Source of the DNA: Candidatus Chloroploca mongolica
GTDB taxonomy: Bacteria; Chloroflexota; Chloroflexia; Chloroflexales; Chloroflexaceae
Length of the DNA stretch: 64,000 nucleotides
Direction: 5' to 3'
NCBI RefSeq assembly: GCF_004762035.2
Contig: NZ_SIJK02000019.1
Coordinates: forward strand, 10,612 to 74,611
In this document: one piece after another, positions 28,819 to 42,011 of the stretch
How positions within the stretch are numbered: the first letter of the stretch is position 1
Layout of the letters: each line of letters begins with the position of its first letter
Position numbers and translations under genes: made by a program
The notes under the pieces: model-generated
Seen by the model: only the letters and a program-made list of their open reading frames with translations
What the model was told of the DNA's origin: nothing
The model's database searches: none

Positions 28819-31266
28819 CTACTCCATTCCAGGGACAAAGGTATACGACCGTGCGATCCGAACAACTTCGGTCAGCGTATAGCCTTCGATGCGTGCGGCA
28901 GCAGCAGCCAGTTGCCCCAGGCTGATCCCGCCATCATTCGGTGGCACCTGGCGATGCAAAAGTGTCCGCATCCCACAGGCACCCAGCACGGCAACGGCAC
29001 GCTCGGCCAAAAGACGGTTTTGGAAACAGCCCCCACTCAGCACAATCACCGGCGGATTAATCATCCGCGCAACGGCCACCATGCTCGACACCATCGCATT
29101 GTGGAAGCGCGCACTGATCCGTTCAATCGCGACGCCACGCCGCAGATCCGCCAGCAGCGCAATCAACGTGGGCCGCCAATCGAGGGAAGAACCAACCAGC
29201 ATAAACGGGTAACTCACGGTTTCATAGGGATCGGCGACATACTCAAGCATCATCGCCGCCTCACCTTCAAACGTCACCTTCTGGCAGAGACCGAGCAACG
29301 ACGCCACCCCATCAAAGAGTCGTCCCGCACTACTAGTTGGCACACACTGCGCGCCCGTCTGGAACATCCGCGAGAAGACCACCCGCTCGTGAGCGGTAAA
29401 AGTTTGCAACGGGGCAAGATCGTCCCACTCCATCGCCTGAACTCCATCAATCGCATAGAGCAGCGCCAATGCCGTGCGCCGTGGTTCGCGGATCGCGGCA
29501 TCGCCCCCAGGCAACAGAAAGGGCCGCAGATGCGCCACACGCTGCGAGTAGGCCACATTGCCATAGAGGAACTCGCCGCCCCAGATCGTGCCATCTAACC
29601 CGTAGCCAGTCCCGTCCCAGATGATCCCCAGCGCCAACCCCTCTACCTGATGCTCGGTCATACACGAGGCCAGGTGCGCATGGTGATGCTGGACGCTCAG
29701 CACTTGAGCGCTCTCTGGCAACACTCCATCGCCCCTACGCTGCACAAACGTGGTCGTAAAGTAGTCAGGATGGAGATCGTGGACGATTGCCGTCGGCGTG
29801 GCGGCATAGAGGCGCATCAGATCGGCGACCACCTGCCCAAAGACCGTGCGTGCTTCAGGGGTTGCGAGATCACCGAGATGCTGACTCAGCAGCACCTGTC
29901 GTCCAACACTCAGCGCGATGGTATTCTTGAGTTGTGCCCCCAGTGCGAGGATCGATGGGGCCGGGTGCTGAAGGATAACCGGCGCTGGCGCATAGCCGCG
30001 CGCACGGCGCAAGAGGCGCGGCTCGCCACCAAGAAGCATCGCAACACTATCATCAGCCGGGCGGACAAGCGGGCGATTGTGAACAAGCAGCCAATCGGCA
30101 ATGCCAGTCAGGCGTTGCAACGCTTCGTATTCATCAATCGCAATTGGTTCGTCGGTCAGGTTGCCACTCGTCGCCACGACTGGTGCCTCGAGCGCATCAA
30201 GCAACAGATGATGGAGTGGCGTCGTGGGCAACATCAGACCGAGGTACGGATTGCCTGGGGCAATCCCTGGCGCAACCCCGGCCTCGTCACGCCGTCGCAG
30301 CAGCACAATCGGCGCTTCCGGCGAGGTCAGCAGATCCGCCGCTTCCTGGGGCACCAGACACAACGTCTCGGCCATCGCCAGATCGCGCACCATCAATGCC
30401 AGCGGCTTGGTCGGGCGCTGTTTGCGCGCCCGCAGACGCGCCACGGCTTGTTCGTTGCGCGCATCACAGATCAGTTGAAACCCGCCGAGCCCCTTGACTC
30501 CGACAATCTGGCCCGCCAGGATCGCCGCGATCGCCCCGCGCAGGGCGGCGTCACCCTCAGCCAGCACGGTCGCGCTTGTTGGCATACAGGCGCCATTGTG
30601 ACGATCTGGCGCAGAGGGCGCAGATTCTGCACCCCCTTCGCCATCAGGCATCCGCCAGAGGGCAAGCTGTGGCCCACAGACATGACAGGCATTTGGCTGC
30701 GCATGGAAACGCCGGTTCGCCGGATCTTCATACTCAGCACGGCAGGCCGGGCAGAGTTCAAACGACCGCATGGTTGTAGACGGGCGATCATAGGGCAACT
30801 GCTCGATAATGCTAAAGCGCGGGCCGCACTGGGTGCAATTGGTCAAGGGATAACGGTAGCGGCGATTGGCGGGATCGCGCACCTCGGAGCGACACTGCGG
30901 GCAGGTCGCCAGATCCGGCAAGACCTGCACCGAAAGCAAGCCCTCGGCATCACTCTCGCGGATCTGAAACCCGTGAAAACCGACTGGCTCAAGCCAATCA
31001 ACTGACGCAGCAAGAATACGGGCGACCCGGGGATGCTCGTTGAGGATGCGCGTATGAAAAGTCTCAAGCGACGCACGCCGACCCTCAACCTCGATCACTA
31101 CCCCATCAGGCCCATTGAACACCCACCCCGTGAGCTTCGCCTCTAACGCACAGCGATACACGAAAGGCCGGAAGCCAACCCCCTGCACCGCCCCGTGGAT
31201 GGCGAGACGGAGCCGGATCAGCCGTTCCTCACCGTGAGCTTCATTGCTCAAGCTTGCTCTCTCCAT
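28819..31266 (-). CDS. hypF: carbamoyltransferase HypF
   Basis: The 815-aa protein has the full domain order: acylphosphatase (about residues 17-105, VQGVGFRPFVYR), two zinc fingers of the form C-X2-C-X18-C-X2-C (about 118-200), a YrdC-like domain (about 225-420, GLGGFQLICDARN) and a Kae1-like domain with the metal-binding VQHHHAHLASCM. It uses carbamoyl phosphate and ATP to carbamoylate HypE. The ATG follows the hypB stop by 4 bp. Confidence 0.97.
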   Translation of the reverse strand: MERASLSNEAHGEERLIRLRLAIHGAVQGVGFRPFVYRCALEAKLTGWVFNGPDGVVIEVEGRRASLETFHTRILNEHPRVARILAASVDWLEPVGFHGFQIRESDAEGLLSVQVLPDLATCPQCRSEVRDPANRRYRYPLTNCTQCGPRFSIIEQLPYDRPSTTMRSFELCPACRAEYEDPANRRFHAQPNACHVCGPQLALWRMPDGEGGAESAPSAPDRHNGACMPTSATVLAEGDAALRGAIAAILAGQIVGVKGLGGFQLICDARNEQAVARLRARKQRPTKPLALMVRDLAMAETLCLVPQEAADLLTSPEAPIVLLRRRDEAGVAPGIAPGNPYLGLMLPTTPLHHLLLDALEAPVVATSGNLTDEPIAIDEYEALQRLTGIADWLLVHNRPLVRPADDSVAMLLGGEPRLLRRARGYAPAPVILQHPAPSILALGAQLKNTIALSVGRQVLLSQHLGDLATPEARTVFGQVVADLMRLYAATPTAIVHDLHPDYFTTTFVQRRGDGVLPESAQVLSVQHHHAHLASCMTEHQVEGLALGIIWDGTGYGLDGTIWGGEFLYGNVAYSQRVAHLRPFLLPGGDAAIREPRRTALALLYAIDGVQAMEWDDLAPLQTFTAHERVVFSRMFQTGAQCVPTSSAGRLFDGVASLLGLCQKVTFEGEAAMMLEYVADPYETVSYPFMLVGSSLDWRPTLIALLADLRRGVAIERISARFHNAMVSSMVAVARMINPPVIVLSGGCFQNRLLAERAVAVLGACGMRTLLHRQVPPNDGGISLGQLAAAAARIEGYTLTEVVRIARSYTFVPGME

Positions 31267-31270
31267 AGCT

Positions 31271-31912
31271 CTAGACCCGACTCACAAGCCAATCGATCCA
31301 CTGCGCAAGGCCCGCGCCAGTACGACACGAAATCGCGAAGATCGGAGCATCGGGATTCACCATCTGCACGCCACAGCGAAAGAACTCAAGATCAAAGTCA
31401 AAGACGGGGCAGAGATCGGCTTTATTCAACAGTACCACATCCGCAGCCGCAAACATGCCCGGATACTTATACGGCTTATCGTGGCCCTCAGGCGCACTGG
31501 CAACCACCACATTGGCATGGGTGCCCAGCTTGAAATTGGCCGGACAGACCAGATTGCCCACATTTTCCACCATCAAAAGCCGCAGACTGGAGAGATCGAG
31601 ATGGGGCAGCGCCGTGCGGATCATTGGTGCATCGAGATGACAGCCGCCGCCGGTATTGATCTGCACCACCGGCAAACCTCGTGCCGCGATTGTCTCGGCA
31701 TCAAGCGACGAAGCCAGATCGCCCTCAATCACCCCAAGGCCCACGCCGACAGGCAGACGTTCCGCCGTTGCCAGGATCAAAGCAGTTTTGCCGGCCCCCG
31801 GCGAAGCCATCACATTCACCGCAAAGAGACCTGCCGCATCAAAGGCAGCGCGATTCTCGGTGGCGACGGCATCATTGTCACTCAAAATCGCCTGAACAAC
31901 ATTCACCTTCAT
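31271..31912 (-). CDS. hypB: nickel-insertion GTPase HypB
   Basis: The 213-aa G3E-family GTPase helps HypA insert nickel. The P-loop reads ASPGAGKT, followed by GVIEGDLASSLDA, the Cys/His-containing metal region (VENVGNLVCPANF, preceded by GGGCHLDA) and the LLNKADLCP guanine motif. The histidine-rich nickel-storage N-terminus of some HypB proteins is absent. A strong AGGAGGT (31919-31925) precedes the ATG; 73 bp separate it from hypA. The similar UreG is excluded by context. Confidence 0.95.
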   Translation of the reverse strand: MKVNVVQAILSDNDAVATENRAAFDAAGLFAVNVMASPGAGKTALILATAERLPVGVGLGVIEGDLASSLDAETIAARGLPVVQINTGGGCHLDAPMIRTALPHLDLSSLRLLMVENVGNLVCPANFKLGTHANVVVASAPEGHDKPYKYPGMFAAADVVLLNKADLCPVFDFDLEFFRCGVQMVNPDAPIFAISCRTGAGLAQWIDWLVSRV

Positions 31913-31985
31913 TGGCGTACCTCCTGTTGTTGCTCAACTGTAGCCGATAATCCAGGTGACAAGATTGTGACTTGGCAACACTGCG

Positions 31986-32327
31986 TTACGATTCTTCGAC
32001 TTCGATGCTCGCGAGGTAAAACTCGGTGCCACCGCTGACACGCAGTTGTGATGAGCCACAGACAGGACAGGCGAACGGCAAGGGTGGATCAACCGGCGTG
32101 ACGACCTGGCAGGCGAGACAGGTTGCCTGGGCGGAAACCCGGCGGAAGCGAAGCAGCGCCCCTGCGGCGGGTGTATCACGGCTCATAATCTCAAAATAGA
32201 ACTGCACCGAGTCATCAACAAAACTACTCAGGCTCCCAACGACCAGATCAATCGCGAGGATACGTCGGTCATCAGCCGCCTGAAGCGCTACACGCAAAAT
32301 ATGCTCGGTCACTGACAATTCATGCAT
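31986..32327 (-). CDS. hypA: nickel-delivery protein HypA
   Basis: The start is fixed by the family N-terminus MHELSVTEH, whose His2 binds nickel. The 113-aa protein has two CxxC pairs (CLACQ and CPVCG) that hold a structural zinc. It overlaps the upstream protease gene by 8 bp. It works with HypB. Confidence 0.96.
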   Translation of the reverse strand: MHELSVTEHILRVALQAADDRRILAIDLVVGSLSSFVDDSVQFYFEIMSRDTPAAGALLRFRRVSAQATCLACQVVTPVDPPLPFACPVCGSSQLRVSGGTEFYLASIEVEES

Positions 32328-32805
32328 CGCGATCCTGCCTGGCAAGGCCCCATCCCTGCAACTCGGCGGCCACTGCGTCGAGCAGCGCGGGCAAACGAGC
32401 GGCAACCGTTGCACTCAACTCGGTACCAAGCTCAAGCCGTTCAGGCACCATGCCCCAGAGCACCCAGCGCGACGGCATCGGGCCTACGAGGCTACCCAGG
32501 GCGAGCAATTCGGCGAGACCAACGTGATGCAGCGAGAGTTGACGAGCCATGCCAGCCGTGATGGCCTCGCCTTCAAGTCGCACCAGGCTCCCAGGCGGAT
32601 CATCAGTCACCACGGCATCGACCATCAAGAGATTCGCCACCCCGACAAGCTGCGGCAACAGGTGCAACCCAAGCGTCTCGCCGTCAAAGACCACCACGTC
32701 GGGCAGTGTACCATACCAGCGCTGCAACTGCTGGCATGCGCGGCTGCCGAGACCATCATCAGACATCATCGGATTGCCAAGCCCCAGAATAAGCGTGTGT
32801 TGCAT
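32320..32805 (-). CDS. hydrogenase maturation endopeptidase
   Basis: The 161-aa protein belongs to the HybD/HycI/HoxW peptidase family, which removes the C-terminal extension of the large subunit after nickel insertion. It begins LILGLGNPMMSDDGLG; the DD form, rather than DE, occurs in the HycI-like and some cytosolic-hydrogenase branches. VVFDGETLGLHLLP and VDAVVTDDPPGS follow. It heads the maturation operon. Each peptidase serves one large subunit, so a cognate hydrogenase should exist elsewhere in the genome. Confidence 0.92.
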   Translation of the reverse strand: MQHTLILGLGNPMMSDDGLGSRACQQLQRWYGTLPDVVVFDGETLGLHLLPQLVGVANLLMVDAVVTDDPPGSLVRLEGEAITAGMARQLSLHHVGLAELLALGSLVGPMPSRWVLWGMVPERLELGTELSATVAARLPALLDAVAAELQGWGLARQDRDA

Positions 32806-33048: not shown

Positions 33049-35634
33049 TCAAAGCGCTGCCATCCCGGTACGCAAGACCTCGGCAAATTGTTCAGGAGGG
33101 ATTGGTTTGCTGAAAAGATAGCCCTGGAAGAAATCGCAGCCCATGTCGTGCAAAAACTCATACTGCGTCGTGGTTTCGACCCCTTCGGCAACAACCTGCA
33201 TACTCAAATGATGTGCAAGGGTAATGATTGCATTGACAATTCCGCGCTCACTGCTATCGTTTTCAAATCCGATTTTACTCACAAATGAACGATCAATCTT
33301 AAGGACACTGATCGGCAAGCGTTGCAGATAGGCCAGTGACGAAAAGCCCGTGCCAAAATCATCAATCGCCAGACTCAACCCGAGGCTACAGAGGCTACTC
33401 AACTGACGGGTCACCGCTTCAACATTGCCCATCAACATACTCTCGGTCAACTCAATCTCGATCCGCTCCGCCTCGACCTTTGTTTCGGCAAGGATCTGGG
33501 TCAAGGTGGGAATGAAATCCTGCTGCGAGAATTGCAACGCCGACACATTGACCGCAATGCGCACGGCAGGCAGGCCCGCTGCATCCCACACCCGGATCTG
33601 GCGACAAAGCTCACGGAGACACCACTCACCAATTGGCACAATCAAGCCAATCTCTTCGGCAAGGGGAATAAACCGTGTGGGAGGAATCTGGCCCAGATCA
33701 GGATGCTGCCAGCGCAACAACGACTCAGCGCCAATCACATGGCGTTCGCGATCCACCTTGGCCTGATAATGCAAGCTCAACTCACCCCGTTCGATGGCTC
33801 GACGCAAATGCGTTTCAAGCTGTAGGCGAGCGAGCGCAGCGGTGTTGACCGTCGCATCAAAAAACTGAAAACTATTGCGGAGGGTGCTTTTGGCGCGATA
33901 CATCGCTGCTTCGGCACTACGTTGCAGCGCATCAGCATCTTCGCCATCGTGCGGATAGAGGCTAGCCCCAATGCTCGCACTGACAAAGAGTTCCTGCTGA
34001 CTAATCACAAACGGCGTGCGCAGGGCATCGTGAAGACGGCGAGCGACGCGAGTCACCTGCGGTGCGCCGCTGACATCGGGCAAGACGAGCATAAACTCAT
34101 CACCACCACGACGTGCCAGCGTATCGGTTGTCCGCACACAGCCCTCAAAGCGGCGTGCCAACTGGATCAAGAGGGTGTCGCCGACGGTATGGCCGAGCGT
34201 ATCATTGATCTGCTTGAAGCGATCAAGATCGAGCATCATCACCGCCATCAAATTCCCCGAACGGCGGGCAATTTCAAGGGCCAGATGCAAACGATCCTCA
34301 AAGAGCAGGCGATTGGGAAGACCGGTGAGCGGATCATGATACGATTGATACGCAAGCTGACGGGTATGCTCGTGCTGCTCAATCGCAATTGCCAGCAACT
34401 GTCCGACAAGTTCCATAAAGACCAGATCATCGGCATTCGGTGCGATCGCCACACGACGACAACAGATCAACTGAGCCACCACACCGAGCGCCCCGGCCCG
34501 CACTGGCGCGCGCCAGACCATCACCATATGCCGAGCCGACAGCAAAGGGCAGAGTGTCGGCCAAGGGACCTCGGCGCCCGCCATATCAATGGCCTGAATA
34601 GCCAGTGCATTACCATTAGCATCATTGGCAGACAGCGCATACCCCTTGGCCCAGCGATCAAGGATCGCGAGTTCATCGGGGAGGAGCATCTCGCTGGGGA
34701 GCGAGCGAAACACATCGGCGTCAGGCACTAGCAACGCAACATAGATGCTATCAGGATGCCTATTCTGGGTCATCAACAAAATACGTGCGACCACCGCCTC
34801 GAGGCTACGCTGACGGGCAATCAACTCGAGGGTTTGGCGGCTATCGATCTCGAGATCGTCGCGCTGATGCTTTCTGGTTGTCTCATCGTGGGTCACAATC
34901 GCACAGATCTTATGGCCCTCACGACATGCAAGCACATTCATGGCAAACCAGCGCGGTCCCTGATCCATCATCAGCGCATATTCGCTCTGGTAATGGGATC
35001 GCTGACCCGCCAGCACGGCACGTAGCCCCTCCAGAATCGTCGGGGAAGGCGGCTCACTTGCTGCTATCAGGCGTTTGGCCAGACGCAGATAATTGGTTCC
35101 AATCTTGCCATACTCTGGGGGAAAGTTATGGATAGCAAGAAAGCCCTGCCATGCATGATTGGCCGCAATAATCACACCCTCGGTATTGATCATCACGACC
35201 CCGGCGGCCATACTATCAAGCGCCTGATGGAACAGTTGCTGCGACTCGATCAGCAACTGTTCGCTGCGGCGCTCGAAGGTCACATCAATCATACTCACGA
35301 GATAGGCTGGTTCACCATACCAGGCAATTTCAGTCATCTCGAGGTTGATGAACGCAACGCTCTGATCGGGGCGAACGATCGTCAGATCACCGATCTGCGC
35401 ATTCACCAACGGAAAGCCAAACTCGTGCCCAAGCAGATTCATCGCCGAACGCCCAAAGAGCGCTTCAGTTGCCGCATTCACCAGACGGATCACACCTTCT
35501 GTATCAACGACAGCGAGCGCATCAAGGCTCTCAGCAACCAGAACTTGCACCGCATCTTCCGTAGCCAGAGGAGAAGACGTTGATCGAGGCGTACCATCAG
35601 AATGAGTGCGGGAATGTTGCGGATCAAACGTCAT
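33049..35634 (-). CDS. PAS-PAS-GAF-GGDEF-EAL c-di-GMP signalling protein (fourth gene of the Kai cluster)
   Basis: The 861-aa soluble protein has two PAS domains (about residues 25-135 and 140-260), a GAF-like region (about 270-430), a GGDEF domain with intact RGGDEF (about 509-514) and an upstream RxxD site (RTTD), and an EAL domain. The EAL signature reads ESL (AESLLRWQHP), and the other catalytic residues are present: ELTESML, AIDDFGTGFSS, VVAEGVET and FFQGYLFSKP. Both synthesis and breakdown of c-di-GMP are possible. The tandem PAS region is a paralogue of that in the first gene of the cluster. GAGGTGG precedes the ATG, and it follows kaiC by 62 bp. Confidence 0.92.
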   Translation of the reverse strand: MTFDPQHSRTHSDGTPRSTSSPLATEDAVQVLVAESLDALAVVDTEGVIRLVNAATEALFGRSAMNLLGHEFGFPLVNAQIGDLTIVRPDQSVAFINLEMTEIAWYGEPAYLVSMIDVTFERRSEQLLIESQQLFHQALDSMAAGVVMINTEGVIIAANHAWQGFLAIHNFPPEYGKIGTNYLRLAKRLIAASEPPSPTILEGLRAVLAGQRSHYQSEYALMMDQGPRWFAMNVLACREGHKICAIVTHDETTRKHQRDDLEIDSRQTLELIARQRSLEAVVARILLMTQNRHPDSIYVALLVPDADVFRSLPSEMLLPDELAILDRWAKGYALSANDANGNALAIQAIDMAGAEVPWPTLCPLLSARHMVMVWRAPVRAGALGVVAQLICCRRVAIAPNADDLVFMELVGQLLAIAIEQHEHTRQLAYQSYHDPLTGLPNRLLFEDRLHLALEIARRSGNLMAVMMLDLDRFKQINDTLGHTVGDTLLIQLARRFEGCVRTTDTLARRGGDEFMLVLPDVSGAPQVTRVARRLHDALRTPFVISQQELFVSASIGASLYPHDGEDADALQRSAEAAMYRAKSTLRNSFQFFDATVNTAALARLQLETHLRRAIERGELSLHYQAKVDRERHVIGAESLLRWQHPDLGQIPPTRFIPLAEEIGLIVPIGEWCLRELCRQIRVWDAAGLPAVRIAVNVSALQFSQQDFIPTLTQILAETKVEAERIEIELTESMLMGNVEAVTRQLSSLCSLGLSLAIDDFGTGFSSLAYLQRLPISVLKIDRSFVSKIGFENDSSERGIVNAIITLAHHLSMQVVAEGVETTTQYEFLHDMGCDFFQGYLFSKPIPPEQFAEVLRTGMAAL

Positions 35635-35696
35635 ACCACCTCACTGCGCCATTGACGTGCCAATGGCATAGCAGGGCAAGTCATACAAATACCAGG

Positions 35697-37232
35697 TCAA
35701 CCTTCAGGCAGCAACGGATTCTCTTCATCACGGAAGAGCGCACTAAGACGCTCGATTTCGCTTGGGGCAACATGGGTAAACTGACCAGAGAGAATACCAG
35801 AAATATTCCGGAACGGTCGCCCAATATGCATCCCAGTACCATCAATCGAAAACTCACGAATATCTTTATCGTGCGCCGAGCCGCGCATCTTCAGGACCGT
35901 CAAACCACGGCGCATCTCACCAAAGAGCTCGACATAGCGCAGCAGAATGATCGAGTCAGTGATCGTCGAGATATGCGCCTCGGTAATCGACGTCCCACCA
36001 AGCAAGGTCGGGGTCGTCGACGTATAGAGCCCGGCCATCTCTTGATGTTTAATAAACGAGGTCAGGCCAATCACGAACTCACGAAAGCCCTTGATCGTCG
36101 AAACGCGTTCAAGAGCCGAGAGGCTATCAATCGCCACGCGCTGGGGGCGAAAACGCAGGATTTCATCCTGAATCGAAATCAACTGATCCTCAAGGCCGGT
36201 CACCTCAGGGTAGTTACAAACCACCCGCAGGAGGCCATCCTGTTCCATCTGCTCAAAATCAACGCCCCAGCCAATCGCATTACGCGCCAACTGATCGCGG
36301 CTCTCTTCAAAAGCAAAGAGCAACGAACGTTCACCGCGCAGGGCTCCCGAGGCCATAAAGGTCGTTGACATGAGGGTCTTACCGGTTCCGGTCGCCCCAC
36401 TGACCAGAATAATCGAGTCACGGAAGAAGCCGCCCCCACACATCCGATCGAGTTCGGGGGAACCCGAGCTAATCCGCACATTCGACGAGCGCTGTTTCAA
36501 CTCAATCGCCGAGAGCGGGATCACCACGATACCCTGCCCAGGGATCACGGTAAAGGGGAAGCCACCTTTTTGATGTGAAGTACCGCGGAACTTGAGGATC
36601 TCGACGGTACGACGGCGCTTTTCTTCTTCCAACAGATTGCGCAGGATAACCACATCATCAGTCACAAACTCTTCGACCCCATAGCGCCCGATATCACCAA
36701 ACTCATGGGTTCGCTCAGCCGTAATGACCGCCGTGAGGCCCATACTCTTGAGTGAGGTCACAATGCGAAACAACTCATTGCGCACCACACGGGTATCGGC
36801 CAAACGATTAAAGATTGCCCCGAGGCTATCCATCGAAACGCGGGTTGCCCCCACGCGGCGCACCGCGTGCTCGATGCGAGCCAGCAGGGCACTGAGGTCA
36901 TAGGCCCCCATAATCATCAACTCATCATCAGCCTGCGGCGAGGCATCGACAAACGCCCAACGGCCCTGTTCCTCCCACTCGGCAATATTCCAACCAAAGC
37001 CAAGCATATTACGGCGCAGCGCCGCCGGCGACTCTTCGAAGGTCACGAAGACGCCGGCCTCGCCGAGCTGCACGCCAGCAGCCAGAAACTGCGAAGCAAA
37101 GACCGTCTTGGCACTCCCCGCCGTACCCGACACAAGCGTGGTTCGGCCACGCGGCAACCCACCATTTGCGATATGATCAAAGCCAGGGATACCCGTTGGC
37201 AACCGCTCAATCACTGACACATCTGTAGCCAA
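35697..37232 (-). CDS. kaiC: circadian clock ATPase/kinase KaiC
   Basis: The 511-aa protein has two RecA-like halves. The CI Walker A is GTAGSAKT (36-43) and the CII Walker A is GATGTGKT; the catalytic Glu pair is EE at 66-67, and FEESRD occurs in CII. The CII phosphorylation region reads TEAHIST, so the equivalents of cyanobacterial Thr426, Ser431 and Thr432 are Thr417, Ser422 and Thr423. This supports real autokinase/phosphatase cycling rather than a plain RadA-like ATPase. The start is a TTG with GGAGAAG upstream. It follows kaiB by 39 bp. The C-terminal tail, the KaiA-binding site in cyanobacteria, is present but different. Confidence 0.95.
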   Translation of the reverse strand: MATDVSVIERLPTGIPGFDHIANGGLPRGRTTLVSGTAGSAKTVFASQFLAAGVQLGEAGVFVTFEESPAALRRNMLGFGWNIAEWEEQGRWAFVDASPQADDELMIMGAYDLSALLARIEHAVRRVGATRVSMDSLGAIFNRLADTRVVRNELFRIVTSLKSMGLTAVITAERTHEFGDIGRYGVEEFVTDDVVILRNLLEEEKRRRTVEILKFRGTSHQKGGFPFTVIPGQGIVVIPLSAIELKQRSSNVRISSGSPELDRMCGGGFFRDSIILVSGATGTGKTLMSTTFMASGALRGERSLLFAFEESRDQLARNAIGWGVDFEQMEQDGLLRVVCNYPEVTGLEDQLISIQDEILRFRPQRVAIDSLSALERVSTIKGFREFVIGLTSFIKHQEMAGLYTSTTPTLLGGTSITEAHISTITDSIILLRYVELFGEMRRGLTVLKMRGSAHDKDIREFSIDGTGMHIGRPFRNISGILSGQFTHVAPSEIERLSALFRDEENPLLPEG

Positions 37233-37271
37233 GGTGCTTCTCCACTCTGGGCGTGAGCAAGGCCCGCAACC

Positions 37272-37574
37272 CTACAAACCATCATGGGGCAAATTCAAAG
37301 CAGCTAACAATTCTTCAGGAGGCACACCAAGGTCGCCGATAATACGTCGCGGCGGATCAGGAAACTCCTTGATCAAAGTTGGCGTTGCAAGAATTTTCCG
37401 TGCCTCAGCCTGCTGAGGATCGGCCAATACATCAATAATCACCAGATCGCACTCGTATCTAGCCAGTTCACGCTCACAGAGGCGACGCAGGGTTGCAATC
37501 GCACGTTCGGCACGCGGAGAGCGTCCAGCCACATACAGATGAAGAACTATTTTGCTGGGGGCAGGGCCATTCAT
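37272..37574 (-). CDS. kaiB: clock protein KaiB
   Basis: The 100-aa thioredoxin-like protein has the KaiB landmarks LYVAGRSPRAERAI near the N-terminus, IIDVLADPQQAE, and the ATPTLIKEFPDPPRRIIGDL block. KaiB binds phosphorylated KaiC and sequesters KaiA or acts on output kinases. It lies 44 bp after the PAS gene. A short, close GAGGTG precedes the ATG. Confidence 0.94.
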   Translation of the reverse strand: MNGPAPSKIVLHLYVAGRSPRAERAIATLRRLCERELARYECDLVIIDVLADPQQAEARKILATPTLIKEFPDPPRRIIGDLGVPPEELLAALNLPHDGL

Positions 37575-37618
37575 GACACCTCACAGCGCAGCGTAAAAGT
37601 CTGATGCCTGCTCATTGG

Positions 37619-38824
37619 TTACCGTTGCTCCGACACGGGCGACCCCGGCTCATTTAACAAGGTCATCAGGCGCGCCCGATAGTATGACGCCAGATGACCC
37701 ATCAACTCAAGAACAAGGAGACGCCCTTCTTCCAGATATGCCTGCTGCTTCACTTGCGGGGCATTGGCGCTCGCAGCACGAACACTGGCGAGATGCACCT
37801 CGATGACATCACGTGCGGTTGCATCGTGGTTACCTAGATATTCACCAAGCTCACGGGGATCAAGTTCAATCGCATAATCAGGCTGAGCACGATGTCTAAG
37901 CGACTCTTCGAGCAACTGTTTGTAAAATTTCAAAGCCTGCCGAAAGACATCAGGCAACCGTTGCCGCAAGACCCCTCCGGCCAATGGTCGTTTATTCTGC
38001 GGGCGTTCCCGTGACCGAACATCAAGATCGCGCAATTCGCGTTCAAACTCACTCAGACGAGCACGCAACATCCGTGCTTCAGCCGCCGCTTCACTGAGCC
38101 GCCGATGTTCGGTGACATTCGTATGCGAAACGACGAGCCCTGGGCGGGTTCCCCGCAGGGGCACCACCCGTAAGACAAACCAGCGTTCTTCGTGGGGGGC
38201 ATGACAAGGATATTCTAACTCAAAAGACGCGAGGCGTCCTTCGAGCACCGCCCGCATCCCATCGAGCGTGATCACCCCTTCTTCTGAGTCAAGCCCCATG
38301 GCGTGCTGACAGACGGTAAAATAGTTGACGCCGACACCAGTATACCGCAATTCGGGATCGCCGTTGGCACGGGCAAAATCACACCACGACTCGTTCACGG
38401 CGATGATCATGCCATTGGCATCAAGCACCGCCAGGTGAACCGTCAACGAGTTCAAGATCGCCCAGTTAAAGGCTTCGGCATCACGTAATGCCTGTTGAGC
38501 GCGACGGTGTTCAGTGATATCACGCAACGAAATCAACTGCGCCGGCGTGCCATCCCACTCGGTATCAACCACCCGCATTTCGGCAACCTGACTGGCCCCG
38601 TCAGGATGCAAGAGGTCAATTTCGGCCCGTTCACCGCGCAAAACCGGAAAACCAAAGATCTGTCCGACCAGATCATCGACCCGCCGCCCGAGGATTCCGG
38701 CGGCCGCCGGATTCAAAAAACGCACCCGTCCATCACTGTCTACGACAATGATGCCATCGGCATTGGCCGCAACAATTTCACGCAGCTGAAAGTCGTCGGT
38801 TGGATAGCGCAGACTATCATCCAT
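37619..38824 (-). CDS. PAS-PAS protein with a KaiA/RsbU-like C-terminal four-helix domain (first gene of the Kai cluster)
   Basis: From the ATG at 38824 the product is 401 aa: PAS1 (about 11-105), PAS2 (about 115-240), a helical linker (about 240-275) and a C-terminal helical domain (about 288-389). In that last domain VIEVHL (His344), then RLLVLELMGHL (Arg368, His377) and YYR (Arg383) match the spacing of IIEIHM, RLTLID-x3-HL and YR in cyanobacterial KaiA as I remember it. RsbU N-terminal domains share the same fold and are the alternative. There is no kinase or output domain. An ATG at 38884 would be leaderless. A hairpin at 38852-38877 lies between the two possible starts. Confidence 0.8.
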   Translation of the reverse strand: MDDSLRYPTDDFQLREIVAANADGIIVVDSDGRVRFLNPAAAGILGRRVDDLVGQIFGFPVLRGERAEIDLLHPDGASQVAEMRVVDTEWDGTPAQLISLRDITEHRRAQQALRDAEAFNWAILNSLTVHLAVLDANGMIIAVNESWCDFARANGDPELRYTGVGVNYFTVCQHAMGLDSEEGVITLDGMRAVLEGRLASFELEYPCHAPHEERWFVLRVVPLRGTRPGLVVSHTNVTEHRRLSEAAAEARMLRARLSEFERELRDLDVRSRERPQNKRPLAGGVLRQRLPDVFRQALKFYKQLLEESLRHRAQPDYAIELDPRELGEYLGNHDATARDVIEVHLASVRAASANAPQVKQQAYLEEGRLLVLELMGHLASYYRARLMTLLNEPGSPVSEQR

Positions 38825-38890: not shown

Positions 38891-38919
38891 ATGATCACAG
38901 GTTACAGGCTTGCTGTCAA
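38891..38919 (-). promoter_or_regulatory. candidate promoter of the Kai cluster
   Basis: On the minus strand TTGACA (38914-38919) is followed after 17 bp by GATCAT (38891-38896), preceded by TGT. The transcript would begin near 38884, separating the Kai genes from the pot operon. Confidence 0.45.
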
Positions 38920-38934
38920 GCCCTGCGCCTACGA

Positions 38935-40086
38935 TTATTGCCCTTTGACCCGCGTCCACAATTCAGTAAAGACAACCGTGTCTTCATTACGCTCGATCCA
39001 TTCGAGCCGTTCCAGCATTGCATCATCGGGGGCAAAGCCAGCGGCATAGAGATCCCGGACTTCCTGGGAAAGCAGGGGGATCGCCGCTTCATTCGGGGTG
39101 AGGTAGCCAACATAATCGGCATTGGCTGCTGCTACATCAGGTCGCAAGAGGAAGTTGATAAAGACATGCGCGGTATAGGCGTTGGGCGACTCACGCAAAA
39201 TAACCAGATTATCCATCCAGATCGCCCCACCCTCATCAGGAATGACAAATTCTATGTTCGCATTGCCAGAAAATTCGTCACCAAGACCAGTCCGCGCCTG
39301 CATGGCCGCGCCGCTCCAGGCATGCGCCAGGATGAACTCTTCGGATGAAAGCCGTCGGTTGACATCCGAGCTATTGTACGAGGCAAGGAACGGCTTCTGG
39401 GCAATCAGGATCGCCTCAACTTGCTGCAAAATGGCTGGATCAGTCGCATTGATCGATGCGCCCAGGTATTTGAGCACGGCCCCTGGGGTTTCACGTTCGT
39501 CATCGAGCATGCTAAAGCGCCCCCGGAAAGCAGGCAGTTGGGCGGAATCAAAGAGCACCGACCAACTTGTAATGCCCTCGGGGAAAAAGGTACGATTGTA
39601 GGCAATGCCAGTCAACCCATACAAATAGGGAAGCGAAATAGCATTGTCAGGGTCAAAATATTTATTGAGTAACCCAGGATCAAGATACTGCATATTCGGC
39701 ACAAGCGCTTGATCAAGTGGTGCCACCAGATCATCAAGCGCCATAATCTGCACTGCATAGTCGGATGGGGCAACAACATCATAGCCCGAATTGCCCGCCC
39801 GGATCTTGGCAATCATATCTTCGTTTGAGTCAAAGATATCAACAATCACCCGTACCCCATACTCCTCTTCGAACTGGGTCAAGATCTCAGGATTGATATA
39901 GTCACTCCAGTTGTAGAAATAGAGTTCACGGGACAACCGGGCACGGTCAACACCATCATCAGGTATGGCAGCCTCGCCGCCCGAAGCATCTGTCGTCGGT
40001 TCACTCCCCGTCGGAGTTCCCGCACCACACGCCACCAACCAGGGCAACACCAACACCAGCACCAACCAGAAGAATCTTTGTCGCAT
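38935..40086 (-). CDS. potD: spermidine/putrescine-binding lipoprotein
   Basis: The 383-aa protein has a lipoprotein signal (membrane stretch then LVAC, Cys at about 20), a Ser/Thr/Gly-rich linker, and a periplasmic-type binding domain. Typical PotD phrases are LYFYNWSDYINPEIL, YDVVAPSDYAVQIM, LPYLYGLTGIAYN and IWMDNLVILRESPN. It captures polyamines for the transporter encoded upstream. It is last in the operon, separated from potC by 177 bp that include a large hairpin. Confidence 0.93.
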   Translation of the reverse strand: MRQRFFWLVLVLVLPWLVACGAGTPTGSEPTTDASGGEAAIPDDGVDRARLSRELYFYNWSDYINPEILTQFEEEYGVRVIVDIFDSNEDMIAKIRAGNSGYDVVAPSDYAVQIMALDDLVAPLDQALVPNMQYLDPGLLNKYFDPDNAISLPYLYGLTGIAYNRTFFPEGITSWSVLFDSAQLPAFRGRFSMLDDERETPGAVLKYLGASINATDPAILQQVEAILIAQKPFLASYNSSDVNRRLSSEEFILAHAWSGAAMQARTGLGDEFSGNANIEFVIPDEGGAIWMDNLVILRESPNAYTAHVFINFLLRPDVAAANADYVGYLTPNEAAIPLLSQEVRDLYAAGFAPDDAMLERLEWIERNEDTVVFTELWTRVKGQ

Positions 40087-40190
40087 TGTTGGGCTTCTCC
40101 TTACACGTCTTCTACCTATGGCACAGCTATCCGTCGCACGCTTGGCGCCTTTGACAAGATTTCAGAAAGAGCCTTTGAGCGTGACATCCG

Positions 40191-40242
40191 GTAGTGCCGA
40201 CTTCAGTCGGCTTCCGGCGCAGCCGACTGAAGTCGGCACTAC
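40191..40242. repeat. perfect 22-bp hairpin with self-palindromic arms
   Basis: Arms 40191-40212 and 40221-40242 are exact reverse complements around 8 nt. Each arm itself contains a palindrome (GCCGACT-TC-AGTCGGC), so it can fold as one long hairpin or as two small ones. It lies between potC and potD and may lower or tune the relation between the two. Sequences of this type recur in other genomes, in my memory, as small dispersed repeats. Confidence 0.75.
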
Positions 40243-40263
40243 GAACGTTCGTTCACACACTCC

Positions 40264-41139
40264 TTACCGCCGGCGCTGGACCAACTGTGATAAGACAACC
40301 AGCGTAATCGAAAAGGCCAGCATCAGCGTCGAAATCGCATTGATCTCGGGCGTGACGGCACGGCGAACTTTATTATAGACCTCAACGGGCAAGAGGGAGG
40401 TGCCAGGCCCCGAGAGGAAGAGGCTGATGATGAAATTGTCAAGCGAGAGGGTAAACGCAAGCAACGCCCCACCCAGAATGCCCGGCAGGATCATCGGGAA
40501 GGTGATCCGCCAGAAGGTTTGCCAGCTGTTCGCCCCGAGATCGCGGGCGGCTTCCTCCAGACGACGATCGAAATGTTTCAGACTCGCCCGCACCACAATC
40601 GTGACAAAACTGATACTAAACGCAATATGGCCGATGATCACGGTCACGAGACTCCGCCGCACCACTTCCCCCGTCACGACACGAATGAACTCGAGGGCGA
40701 GGGACGAAAAGGCGAGCAACGAGACGGCCATCGCGATTTCGGGGATCACCACGGGCAAGTAGATCACCGCATCAACGCCGGTACGCCCGCGAAAACGGTG
40801 GCGTTCCATCGCGAGGGCGAGCAGGGTGCCAAGGATCGTCGAGACAACGGTCGAGACAAAAGCGACATAGAGGGTGTTGCCTGCGGCCCCCATCAGGCGA
40901 TCATTGGCAAACATGCGCACATACCACTCGAGCGTAAAGCCCGTCCAGCGCACACCAAACTCGTCACGGGTAAACGAAAAGACGACGAGCACCAGGATCG
41001 GCCCATAGAGAAAGAGATACATCAGGAACGCATGCAAGGTCAAAGTCAGGCGACCCCAGGTCAAGGCACCCCTGTTCAAACGCGGCCACCAGGAACCTGC
41101 CCGCTGCGCACGCTGGTTCTGCGGTTGCGCCTCGATCAT
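40264..41139 (-). CDS. potC: spermidine/putrescine ABC transporter permease PotC
   Basis: The 291-aa protein has about six membrane helices and the binding-protein-dependent permease EAA loop (EEAARDLGANSWQTFWRITFP). FLYGPILVLVVFSF and LSLDNFIISLFLSGPG are typical of PotC. Its ATG overlaps the potB stop by four bases. Confidence 0.95.
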   Translation of the reverse strand: MIEAQPQNQRAQRAGSWWPRLNRGALTWGRLTLTLHAFLMYLFLYGPILVLVVFSFTRDEFGVRWTGFTLEWYVRMFANDRLMGAAGNTLYVAFVSTVVSTILGTLLALAMERHRFRGRTGVDAVIYLPVVIPEIAMAVSLLAFSSLALEFIRVVTGEVVRRSLVTVIIGHIAFSISFVTIVVRASLKHFDRRLEEAARDLGANSWQTFWRITFPMILPGILGGALLAFTLSLDNFIISLFLSGPGTSLLPVEVYNKVRRAVTPEINAISTLMLAFSITLVVLSQLVQRRR

Positions 41140-42011
41140 CGATCTTCCTCCGTTGTCGAGCGAAAATAGAGCAAAATGAAGCCCAGCAGCACAACCATCA
41201 TCACCGTTGACATAGCCGAACCCAGCGGCCAGTTGGGCGGATTCGAGCGCAAGAAGAGGCGTTGGATCAGATTGCCGATATAATCAACCTTGGCCCCGCC
41301 AAGCAATTCACTCACCACAAATTGACCAACCGTGGGAATAAAGACCAGCACAGCCCCTGCGGCCACCCCCGGCATCGTCATGGGCAGCATGATATGCCAG
41401 AAGGCGCGCCACTTGCTCGCCCCGAGATCCGCCCCGGCCTCCATCAGGGTAAAATCAAAGCGATCCAGGGCCGCATAGATCGGCAGCACCATAAAAGGCA
41501 ACTCACCATAGACCAAGCCAAGCAACGTCGCCCCTTCGGTGTTGAGCAAAAAGAGGGTCGGCAGGCCCAGGGTCCCGAGAGTCGTATTGATCAAGCCATT
41601 ATTCGCCAGGATAATCTGCCAGGCATAAATCCGGACGAGAAAATTGGTCCAGAAGGGAATCAATACTAGGATCAAGAGCACCAGGCGCGCCCGAGGCGGT
41701 TGCTTGACAATAAAGAGGGCCAGAGGATAGCCAAGCAAGAGGGCAAAAAGTGTGGTCAGCACACTGATCCAGAGCGAACGCACATACGCATTGACATAGC
41801 TTGCCTGGGTAAAGAGATCAACATAGTTTTGCAGAGTTGGCTGCCAGACAAGGTTGCCGCGGGGCCCATTGGTAAGAAAGCTATAGACCAGAATCACCAA
41901 CAGGGGCAAGAGAAAAAAGACGAGCAGCCAGAACATCCCCGGCGCAAGCAGGGCCATCAGACGGCGCTGCTCACGGCGCTGCTGCTCACGTTCAAATGAC
42001 GATAATGCCAT
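41136..42011 (-). CDS. potB: spermidine/putrescine ABC transporter permease PotB
   Basis: The 291-aa membrane protein has a first helix starting near residue 24, a large loop and the EAA motif (MEAGADLGASKWRAFWHIMLP). PTVGQFVVSELLGGAK marks the PotB/PotH side. It lies 60 bp downstream of potA. Confidence 0.95.
   Translation of the reverse strand: MALSSFEREQQRREQRRLMALLAPGMFWLLVFFLLPLLVILVYSFLTNGPRGNLVWQPTLQNYVDLFTQASYVNAYVRSLWISVLTTLFALLLGYPLALFIVKQPPRARLVLLILVLIPFWTNFLVRIYAWQIILANNGLINTTLGTLGLPTLFLLNTEGATLLGLVYGELPFMVLPIYAALDRFDFTLMEAGADLGASKWRAFWHIMLPMTMPGVAAGAVLVFIPTVGQFVVSELLGGAKVDYIGNLIQRLFLRSNPPNWPLGSAMSTVMMVVLLGFILLYFRSTTEEDR

Follow-up and report, generated by a model that had tools for sequence, protein, structure and literature searches.

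A KaiA-like protein with two PAS domains, encoded directly upstream of kaiB and kaiC in a green non-sulfur bacterium

The kai gene cluster

The stretch of DNA analyzed here, 64,000 nucleotides from Candidatus Chloroploca mongolica (hereafter the window), carries a cluster of four genes on the minus strand, running from position 38824 down to 33049: a gene for a protein with two PAS domains and a helical C-terminus, kaiB, kaiC, and a gene for a PAS-PAS-GGDEF-EAL protein. The host is a member of Chloroflexota, i.e. a green non-sulfur bacterium, and orthologues that are 97% identical are present in two Chloroploca genomes. Judged by sequence profile and predicted structure, the helical domain of the first protein falls within the KaiA/RsbU_N superfamily, closer to KaiA. 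The intergenic gaps are 44 bp (37575-37618), 39 bp (37233-37271) and 62 bp (35635-35696), in keeping with the order, shared strand and spacing described in a first-pass annotation that was made from the sequence alone. The features are the following.

37619-38824, minus strand: PAS-PAS-KaiA-like protein, 401 amino acids, ATG start at 38824 (open reading frame and Pfam PAS)
38510-38785, minus strand: PAS1, a kai-linked PAS subtype (Pfam and whole-genome PAS1 searches)
38099-38455, minus strand: PAS2, PAS_4 type (Pfam PAS_4, 1.3e-13)
38009-38113, minus strand: predicted long helix, residues 238-272, between PAS2 and the KaiA-like domain (AlphaFold2 full-length model)
37652-37969, minus strand: KaiA-like four-helix domain, residues 286-391 (AlphaFold2, fold matches in PDB, profile match to KaiA)
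37790-37807, minus strand: VIEVHL motif, counterpart of VVEIHM in Synechococcus elongatus KaiA
37676-37723, minus strand: RLLVLELMGHLASYYR motif, counterpart of RLTLIDVIAHLCEMYR in KaiA
37272-37574, minus strand: kaiB, 100 amino acids (Pfam KaiB, 1.1e-20)
35697-37232, minus strand: kaiC, 511 amino acids, TTG start, two KaiC domains, HISTITD phosphosite motif retained (Pfam KaiC, 7.2e-112; NCBIfam; PDB)
35700-35813, minus strand: C-terminal segment of KaiC, 38 residues, corresponding to the A-loop and the tail that binds KaiA (alignment to solved KaiC, comparison across loci)
33049-35634, minus strand: PAS1-PAS2-GGDEF-EAL protein, 861 amino acids (Pfam GGDEF, 6e-50; EAL, 6e-71)
38891-38919, minus strand: promoter-like site 5' of the first gene (a match to the consensus alone; such matches do not exceed the number expected by chance in the region)

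The reading frame of the first gene stays open upstream of the ATG at 38824, up to a GTG at 38959; the ATG is common to the Chloroploca orthologue. Scans of the cluster for promoters and terminators gave results near chance. In the fourth gene the PAS pair, GGDEF and EAL domains of the first-pass annotation were all recovered with Pfam, but the GAF domain also assigned to it had no Pfam match even at an E-value of 5.

Relation of the helical domain to KaiA

Two alignments of the domain were used, neither of which included KaiA: A1 with 32 rows from Chloroflexota and one planctomycete, and A2 with 52 rows, in which 20 homologues from three other phyla were added. The KaiA sequences used for comparison were those of S. 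elongatus and Thermosynechococcus elongatus from PDB, and these and RsbU were verified against their PDB entries; further cyanobacterial KaiA was sought in plasmids and viral contigs and none was found there.

Structure prediction of the domain alone, which the first-pass annotation had proposed as a check, gave a confident AlphaFold2 model on alignment A1 (predicted local distance difference test, pLDDT, 90.5; predicted template modelling score, pTM, 0.81), and the C-terminal four-helix fold of KaiA is present in this predicted structure. When the model was compared with 350,542 PDB chains by Foldseek, ranks 1-11 were all KaiA with probabilities of 0.95-1.00, one further KaiA chain followed at 0.91, and the remaining chains stayed at or below 0.54. 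VIA-align likewise placed KaiA at ranks 1-8 (Z 9.6-10.7), with RsbU at Z 5.2. Identity to canonical KaiA is about 15% over the aligned structure.

As a single-sequence query against PDB and Pfam the C-terminal domain returned only noise, and the A1 profile alone placed KaiA at an E-value of 0.7 amid apolipoproteins and other helical proteins. With the A2 profile, KaiA chains took ranks 1-4 among 177,635 PDB sequences (E-values 0.0099-0.04), and the best alignment spans nearly the whole domain in the register that the first-pass annotation had suggested. In hhalign comparisons P was 3e-4 for S. elongatus KaiA and 0.067 for Bacillus subtilis RsbU. Both motifs are located as the annotation stated (VIEVHL at 37790-37807, RLLVLELMGHLASYYR at 37676-37723); they are separated by 22 residues in the window protein and by 23 in S. 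elongatus KaiA, where the annotation gave 24, while the spacing from the Arg to the last Arg is 15 in both proteins and so identical, as claimed. Arg368 of the 401-residue protein is invariant. The Pfam KaiA and RsbU_N families, which the annotation had suggested for a profile search, gave no match for the window protein. Because fold and profile searches that were both free of KaiA rank KaiA first, the resemblance is beyond chance. Deep support in the domain tree is weak and its branches are long, so no claim is made on a single origin of the PAS-KaiA proteins or on the ancestral N-terminus.

Gene order and the KaiC tail

KaiA was long regarded as cyanobacterial (PMC5520375), and the premise of the first-pass annotation that kaiBC sets outside cyanobacteria normally lack it is outdated, since a 2024 paper (PMC11372060) described KaiA3-type proteins from bacteria other than cyanobacteria. 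A KaiA-like gene also precedes kaiB-kaiC in many Pseudomonadota and in some Bacteroidota and Planctomycetota, and within Chloroflexota it lies 5' of kaiB-kaiC in nearly all the genomes that have it, and directly so in Chloroflexaceae and their relatives as well as in several other lines (the sampled genomes were assigned to phyla by way of the named loci that served as centres). Among 301 sampled Chloroflexota genomes, kaiB exceeded the Pfam cut-off in 22 of the 23 with a strong match to the domain versus 7 of the 278 without one; the Fisher test value of 2.6e-26 is inflated by relatedness and becomes 3e-4 when genomes are collapsed to families (assumed total 72). Chloroflexaceae possess a second paralogue, of the receiver-KaiA type, that adjoins a histidine kinase gene and has no kaiBC; at L186:5448-7576 and L187:3990-6021 such paralogues overlap or abut a gene for a PAS histidine kinase, again with no kaiBC nearby. 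In a second class of Pseudomonadota cluster (L246-L251) the order is kaiB, receiver-KaiA, kaiB, kaiC, and two kaiB genes flank KaiA in several of these loci.

In all 49 KaiC proteins whose gene adjoins one for a KaiA-like protein, the C-terminus consists of a short FRNxxGI(L/I)xG segment plus tail (46 by the strict pattern, three by eye). This stretch aligns to the C-terminus of S. elongatus-type KaiC, the site of the A-loop and KaiA-binding tail. In contrast, none of six KaiC proteins from kai loci without the domain has a KaiA-type tail, and the majority of the six carry long charged extensions at this end. It is known that Rhodobacter KaiC2, which works without KaiA, has an extended C-terminus (PMC11372060). 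The tail tracks the KaiC subfamily and the genomes are therefore not independent cases. It can serve as a sequence marker by which KaiC proteins that have a KaiA-like partner are told from those that have none. Both kinds occur in the genome of the window's own host: besides the kaiC of the window with its short tail, a second kaiC-kaiB pair (L253:5326-7173, G000:C72) encodes a KaiC without the KaiA-type tail and has no adjoining KaiA-like gene. We also observed that the first Walker A motif of the window KaiC (37104-37127) reads GTAGSAKT, with Ala replacing the usual Gly; this Ala is common to most KaiC proteins paired with a KaiA-like gene and is not seen in the unpaired ones.

N-terminal modules and the PAS1 subtype

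Relatives of the domain carry diverse N-termini. The PAS1-PAS2 arrangement occurs in Chloroflexales and in two Anaerolineae-type metagenome-assembled genomes, a receiver in Roseiflexus-type relatives within the order, in Pseudomonadota, Planctomycetota and the Chloroflexaceae paralogues, and a single PAS2-type domain in Bacteroidota and one planctomycete; other N-termini are undefined. The window protein has no Pfam Response_reg match and two PAS domains instead, while receiver-type relatives score well against that family.

A histidine kinase gene on the same strand is present in 20 of 24 receiver-KaiA clusters (our own count, within the slice examined). The Chloroflexales PAS-PAS clusters have no histidine kinase within the operon, although four have one 2-5 kb upstream, and in 19 Chloroflexales loci, Viridilinea excepted, a PAS1-PAS2-GGDEF(-EAL) gene is found 3' of kaiC. 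The two Anaerolineae-type PAS-PAS clusters do carry a PAS1 kinase. Whole-genome searches with the PAS1 of the window at an E-value of 1e-8, with PAS-KaiA proteins excluded, showed that for 48 of 58 matches a KaiA-like gene is no more than 8 kb away, the matching proteins being kinases, GGDEF proteins and GGDEF-EAL proteins. Matches were present in 22 of 27 genomes with the KaiA-like domain versus 2 of 49 comparison genomes (Fisher test 2.5e-12, kinship uncorrected), and in G145 and G193 the kinase adjoining kaiC has a PAS1 that is 48-49% identical to that of the window. PAS1 is a kai-linked PAS subtype. Elsewhere PAS1 resides in a separate kinase; here this probable sensor is fused to KaiA and, a second time, to the downstream enzyme of cyclic di-GMP (c-di-GMP) metabolism.

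The PAS pair is structurally like NifL, DosP, FixL and MmoS, a likeness that does not identify the ligand. The AlphaFold2 model of the full-length protein has pLDDT 83.4 and pTM 0.45, and the arrangement of its domains is uncertain.

Comparison with known systems

The closest described proteins are those named KaiA3, i.e. Synechocystis Sll0485 and its orthologues (Koebler et al. 2024, PMC11372060), which have been reported to dimerise, to bind KaiC3 and to promote its phosphorylation, with KaiB3 opposing, and whose receiver-type form was already reported from Chloroflexus and Roseiflexus. Both KaiA3 and the window protein have a KaiA-like four-helix domain at the C-terminus, preceded by a different N-terminal module; in both cases the gene is directly upstream of kaiB(-kaiC) and the partner KaiC lacks the extended C-terminus. 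They differ in that the N-terminus of KaiA3 is a NarL-type receiver while the window protein carries a PAS pair and gives no match to a receiver, and in that the window operon has no separate kinase and carries the PAS-PAS-GGDEF-EAL gene 3' of kaiC. With canonical KaiA (PF07688) the window protein shares the predicted C-terminal fold, the motif register and the kaiA-kaiB-kaiC order, but it is below the Pfam cut-off, has PAS-PAS instead of a pseudo-receiver, and shows no predicted linker strand like beta-6 of KaiA in a full-length model of uncertain domain arrangement. Variation of the N-terminus is also known in cyanobacterial KaiA, including single-domain forms without the pseudo-receiver (PMC8113500). 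The KaiBC2-type hourglass of Rhodobacter (PMC11372060) is likewise a kaiB and kaiC set outside cyanobacteria, but there KaiC has an extended C-terminus and works without KaiA, while the window KaiC has a short tail and a KaiA-like partner.

The window protein is neither a canonical KaiA, considering the Pfam cut-off and the N-terminal domain, nor a strict KaiA3, as it has no receiver, but it would most likely work like both. What is new here is the PAS-PAS pair in place of a receiver on a relative of KaiA, and PAS1 as a kai-linked subtype. The open-access literature searched yielded no description of PAS-PAS-KaiA, subscription papers and preprints being outside the search, and priority is not certain. 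The rubrum kaiA3 has been noted close to PAS kinases (PMC10931921), and the cognate histidine kinase of receiver-type KaiA3 was, according to its discoverers, not yet identified (PMC11372060); our survey supplies candidates for it.

Proposed function and alternatives

The homology of the domain to KaiA, seen in predicted fold and profile, is shown together with the conserved gene order, the correlation with the KaiC tail and the kai-linkage of PAS1. The KaiA equivalent proposed in the first-pass annotation is well supported by the first of these, by the operon context in four phyla and by the co-varying KaiC tail, while activation of KaiC and sensory input through the PAS domains are inferred. 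We consider it probable that the PAS-PAS protein is a KaiA-like activator in which the PAS pair replaces the receiver and which stimulates autophosphorylation of KaiC through the tail. The helical domain would, by homology with KaiA3, most likely dimerise, bind the tail of the window KaiC, whose gene is the second one downstream, and promote KaiC autophosphorylation, with KaiB acting against it. A signal perceived by the PAS pair could pass down the predicted helix 238-272 and tune the activator, and the protein would then be a one-component counterpart of the arrangement in other bacteria, in which a gene for a PAS histidine kinase accompanies receiver-KaiA. Judging from its domains only, the PAS1-PAS2-GGDEF-EAL protein encoded 3' of kaiC is a probable link between the cluster and c-di-GMP, as output or as co-input.

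Several results weigh against this proposal. The window protein has no match to Pfam KaiA, and no protein in the 301 Chloroflexota genomes is over the cut-off of that family; 3 of 52 family members have weak matches, the best being 0.0016, below the curated cut-off. The Foldseek E-values for KaiA are modest (0.09-0.6), and in VIA-align a stressosome protein follows next at Z 9.4, so near to KaiA that Z alone cannot part KaiA from other bundles, which reach middling values by chance. The His of the GHL motif varies among homologues. The KaiB-binding strand of KaiA (PMC6378743) is not predicted between PAS2 and the domain in the full-length model, whose domain arrangement is uncertain. There is also no kaiBC near the domain in G073 and in some planctomycete and bacteroidete copies.

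One alternative leaves the helical domain as KaiA and concerns PAS1, which could be a docking domain for KaiB or KaiC, comparable to the KaiB-like domain of SasA, and not an input; PAS-KaiA, the kai-linked kinases and the GGDEF or GGDEF-EAL proteins would then have it in common because each of them binds KaiB or KaiC. Relatives of PAS1 do gather round kai genes whatever the output domain; however, PAS folds are usually sensors, the present pair resembles NifL, DosP, FixL and MmoS in structure, and a shared signal input accounts for the linkage equally well. Docking is in our view rather unlikely. It is quite improbable that the helical domain is an RsbU_N-type binder of an RsbT-like kinase, of KaiB or of the GGDEF-EAL protein, and therefore an adaptor and not an activator of KaiC. 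The RsbU N-terminal domain (PF08673) has the same superfamily fold, weak Pfam matches among the family members are most often to RsbU_N (7 of 52, best 5e-4), the A1 profile also reaches genuine RsbU_N-PAS-kinases, receiver-KaiA paralogues occur away from kaiBC, and one kai cluster (L184:12884-14936) adjoins genes that resemble, by eye, partner-switch proteins of the STAS, anti-sigma ATPase and PP2C kinds. Nevertheless, the domain is closer to KaiA than to RsbU by fold and profile, it is coupled to kaiB-kaiC and to the type of KaiC tail, and RsbU, which acts with RsbT in stress signalling, has a PP2C phosphatase domain for which the window protein has no match at an E-value of 5, nor does it match Pfam RsbU_N. 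It is hardly credible that an ordinary four-helix bundle resembles KaiA here by accident. Foldseek E-values are above 0.01 and helical bundles often give middling Z, but KaiA comes first in searches of two independent kinds and is set clearly apart by its Foldseek probability, the methods agree on the register, and the gene adjoins kaiBC in four phyla.

Starting from a KaiA-like activator under a PAS pair, a broader and more tentative picture can be drawn, which we hold with some reserve: a clock-specific PAS module may be common to kai-linked proteins. In many bacteria it would belong to histidine kinases whose genes adjoin receiver-KaiA, and Chloroflexales may have fused it both to the KaiA domain and to GGDEF-EAL, giving anoxygenic phototrophs a one-component, signal-gated KaiABC system with a single sensory (or Kai-docking) domain common to its input and its output. 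The existence of self-sustained Kai clocks outside cyanobacteria hinges on that of a KaiA function, and a sensor fused to a KaiA-like activator might give an outside signal a direct route to the clock. The cluster offers a KaiA-KaiB-KaiC set in relatives of Chloroflexus in which sensor and activator are joined, so that three purified proteins could suffice for work on clock input.

Additional observations

RsbU_N is fused to PAS histidine kinases in the Chloroflexota loci L174, L175 and L176, which the KaiA-like profile reaches weakly. The best weak Pfam KaiA match in Chloroflexota (G258, locus L188) was dropped as a candidate since it has no kai neighbours. A PAS-KaiB fusion of 557 amino acids, with KaiB at the C-terminus and no kinase domain found, occurs away from the kai cluster in the host's own genome and in two sister genomes (L252:2994-4664, G000:C138; L260). 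On the two sides of the cluster, the downstream flank (28819-32805) resembles by eye hydrogenase maturation genes (HypF, HypB, HypA and a protease), and the upstream flank (38935-42011) genes of a spermidine/putrescine-type ABC transporter.

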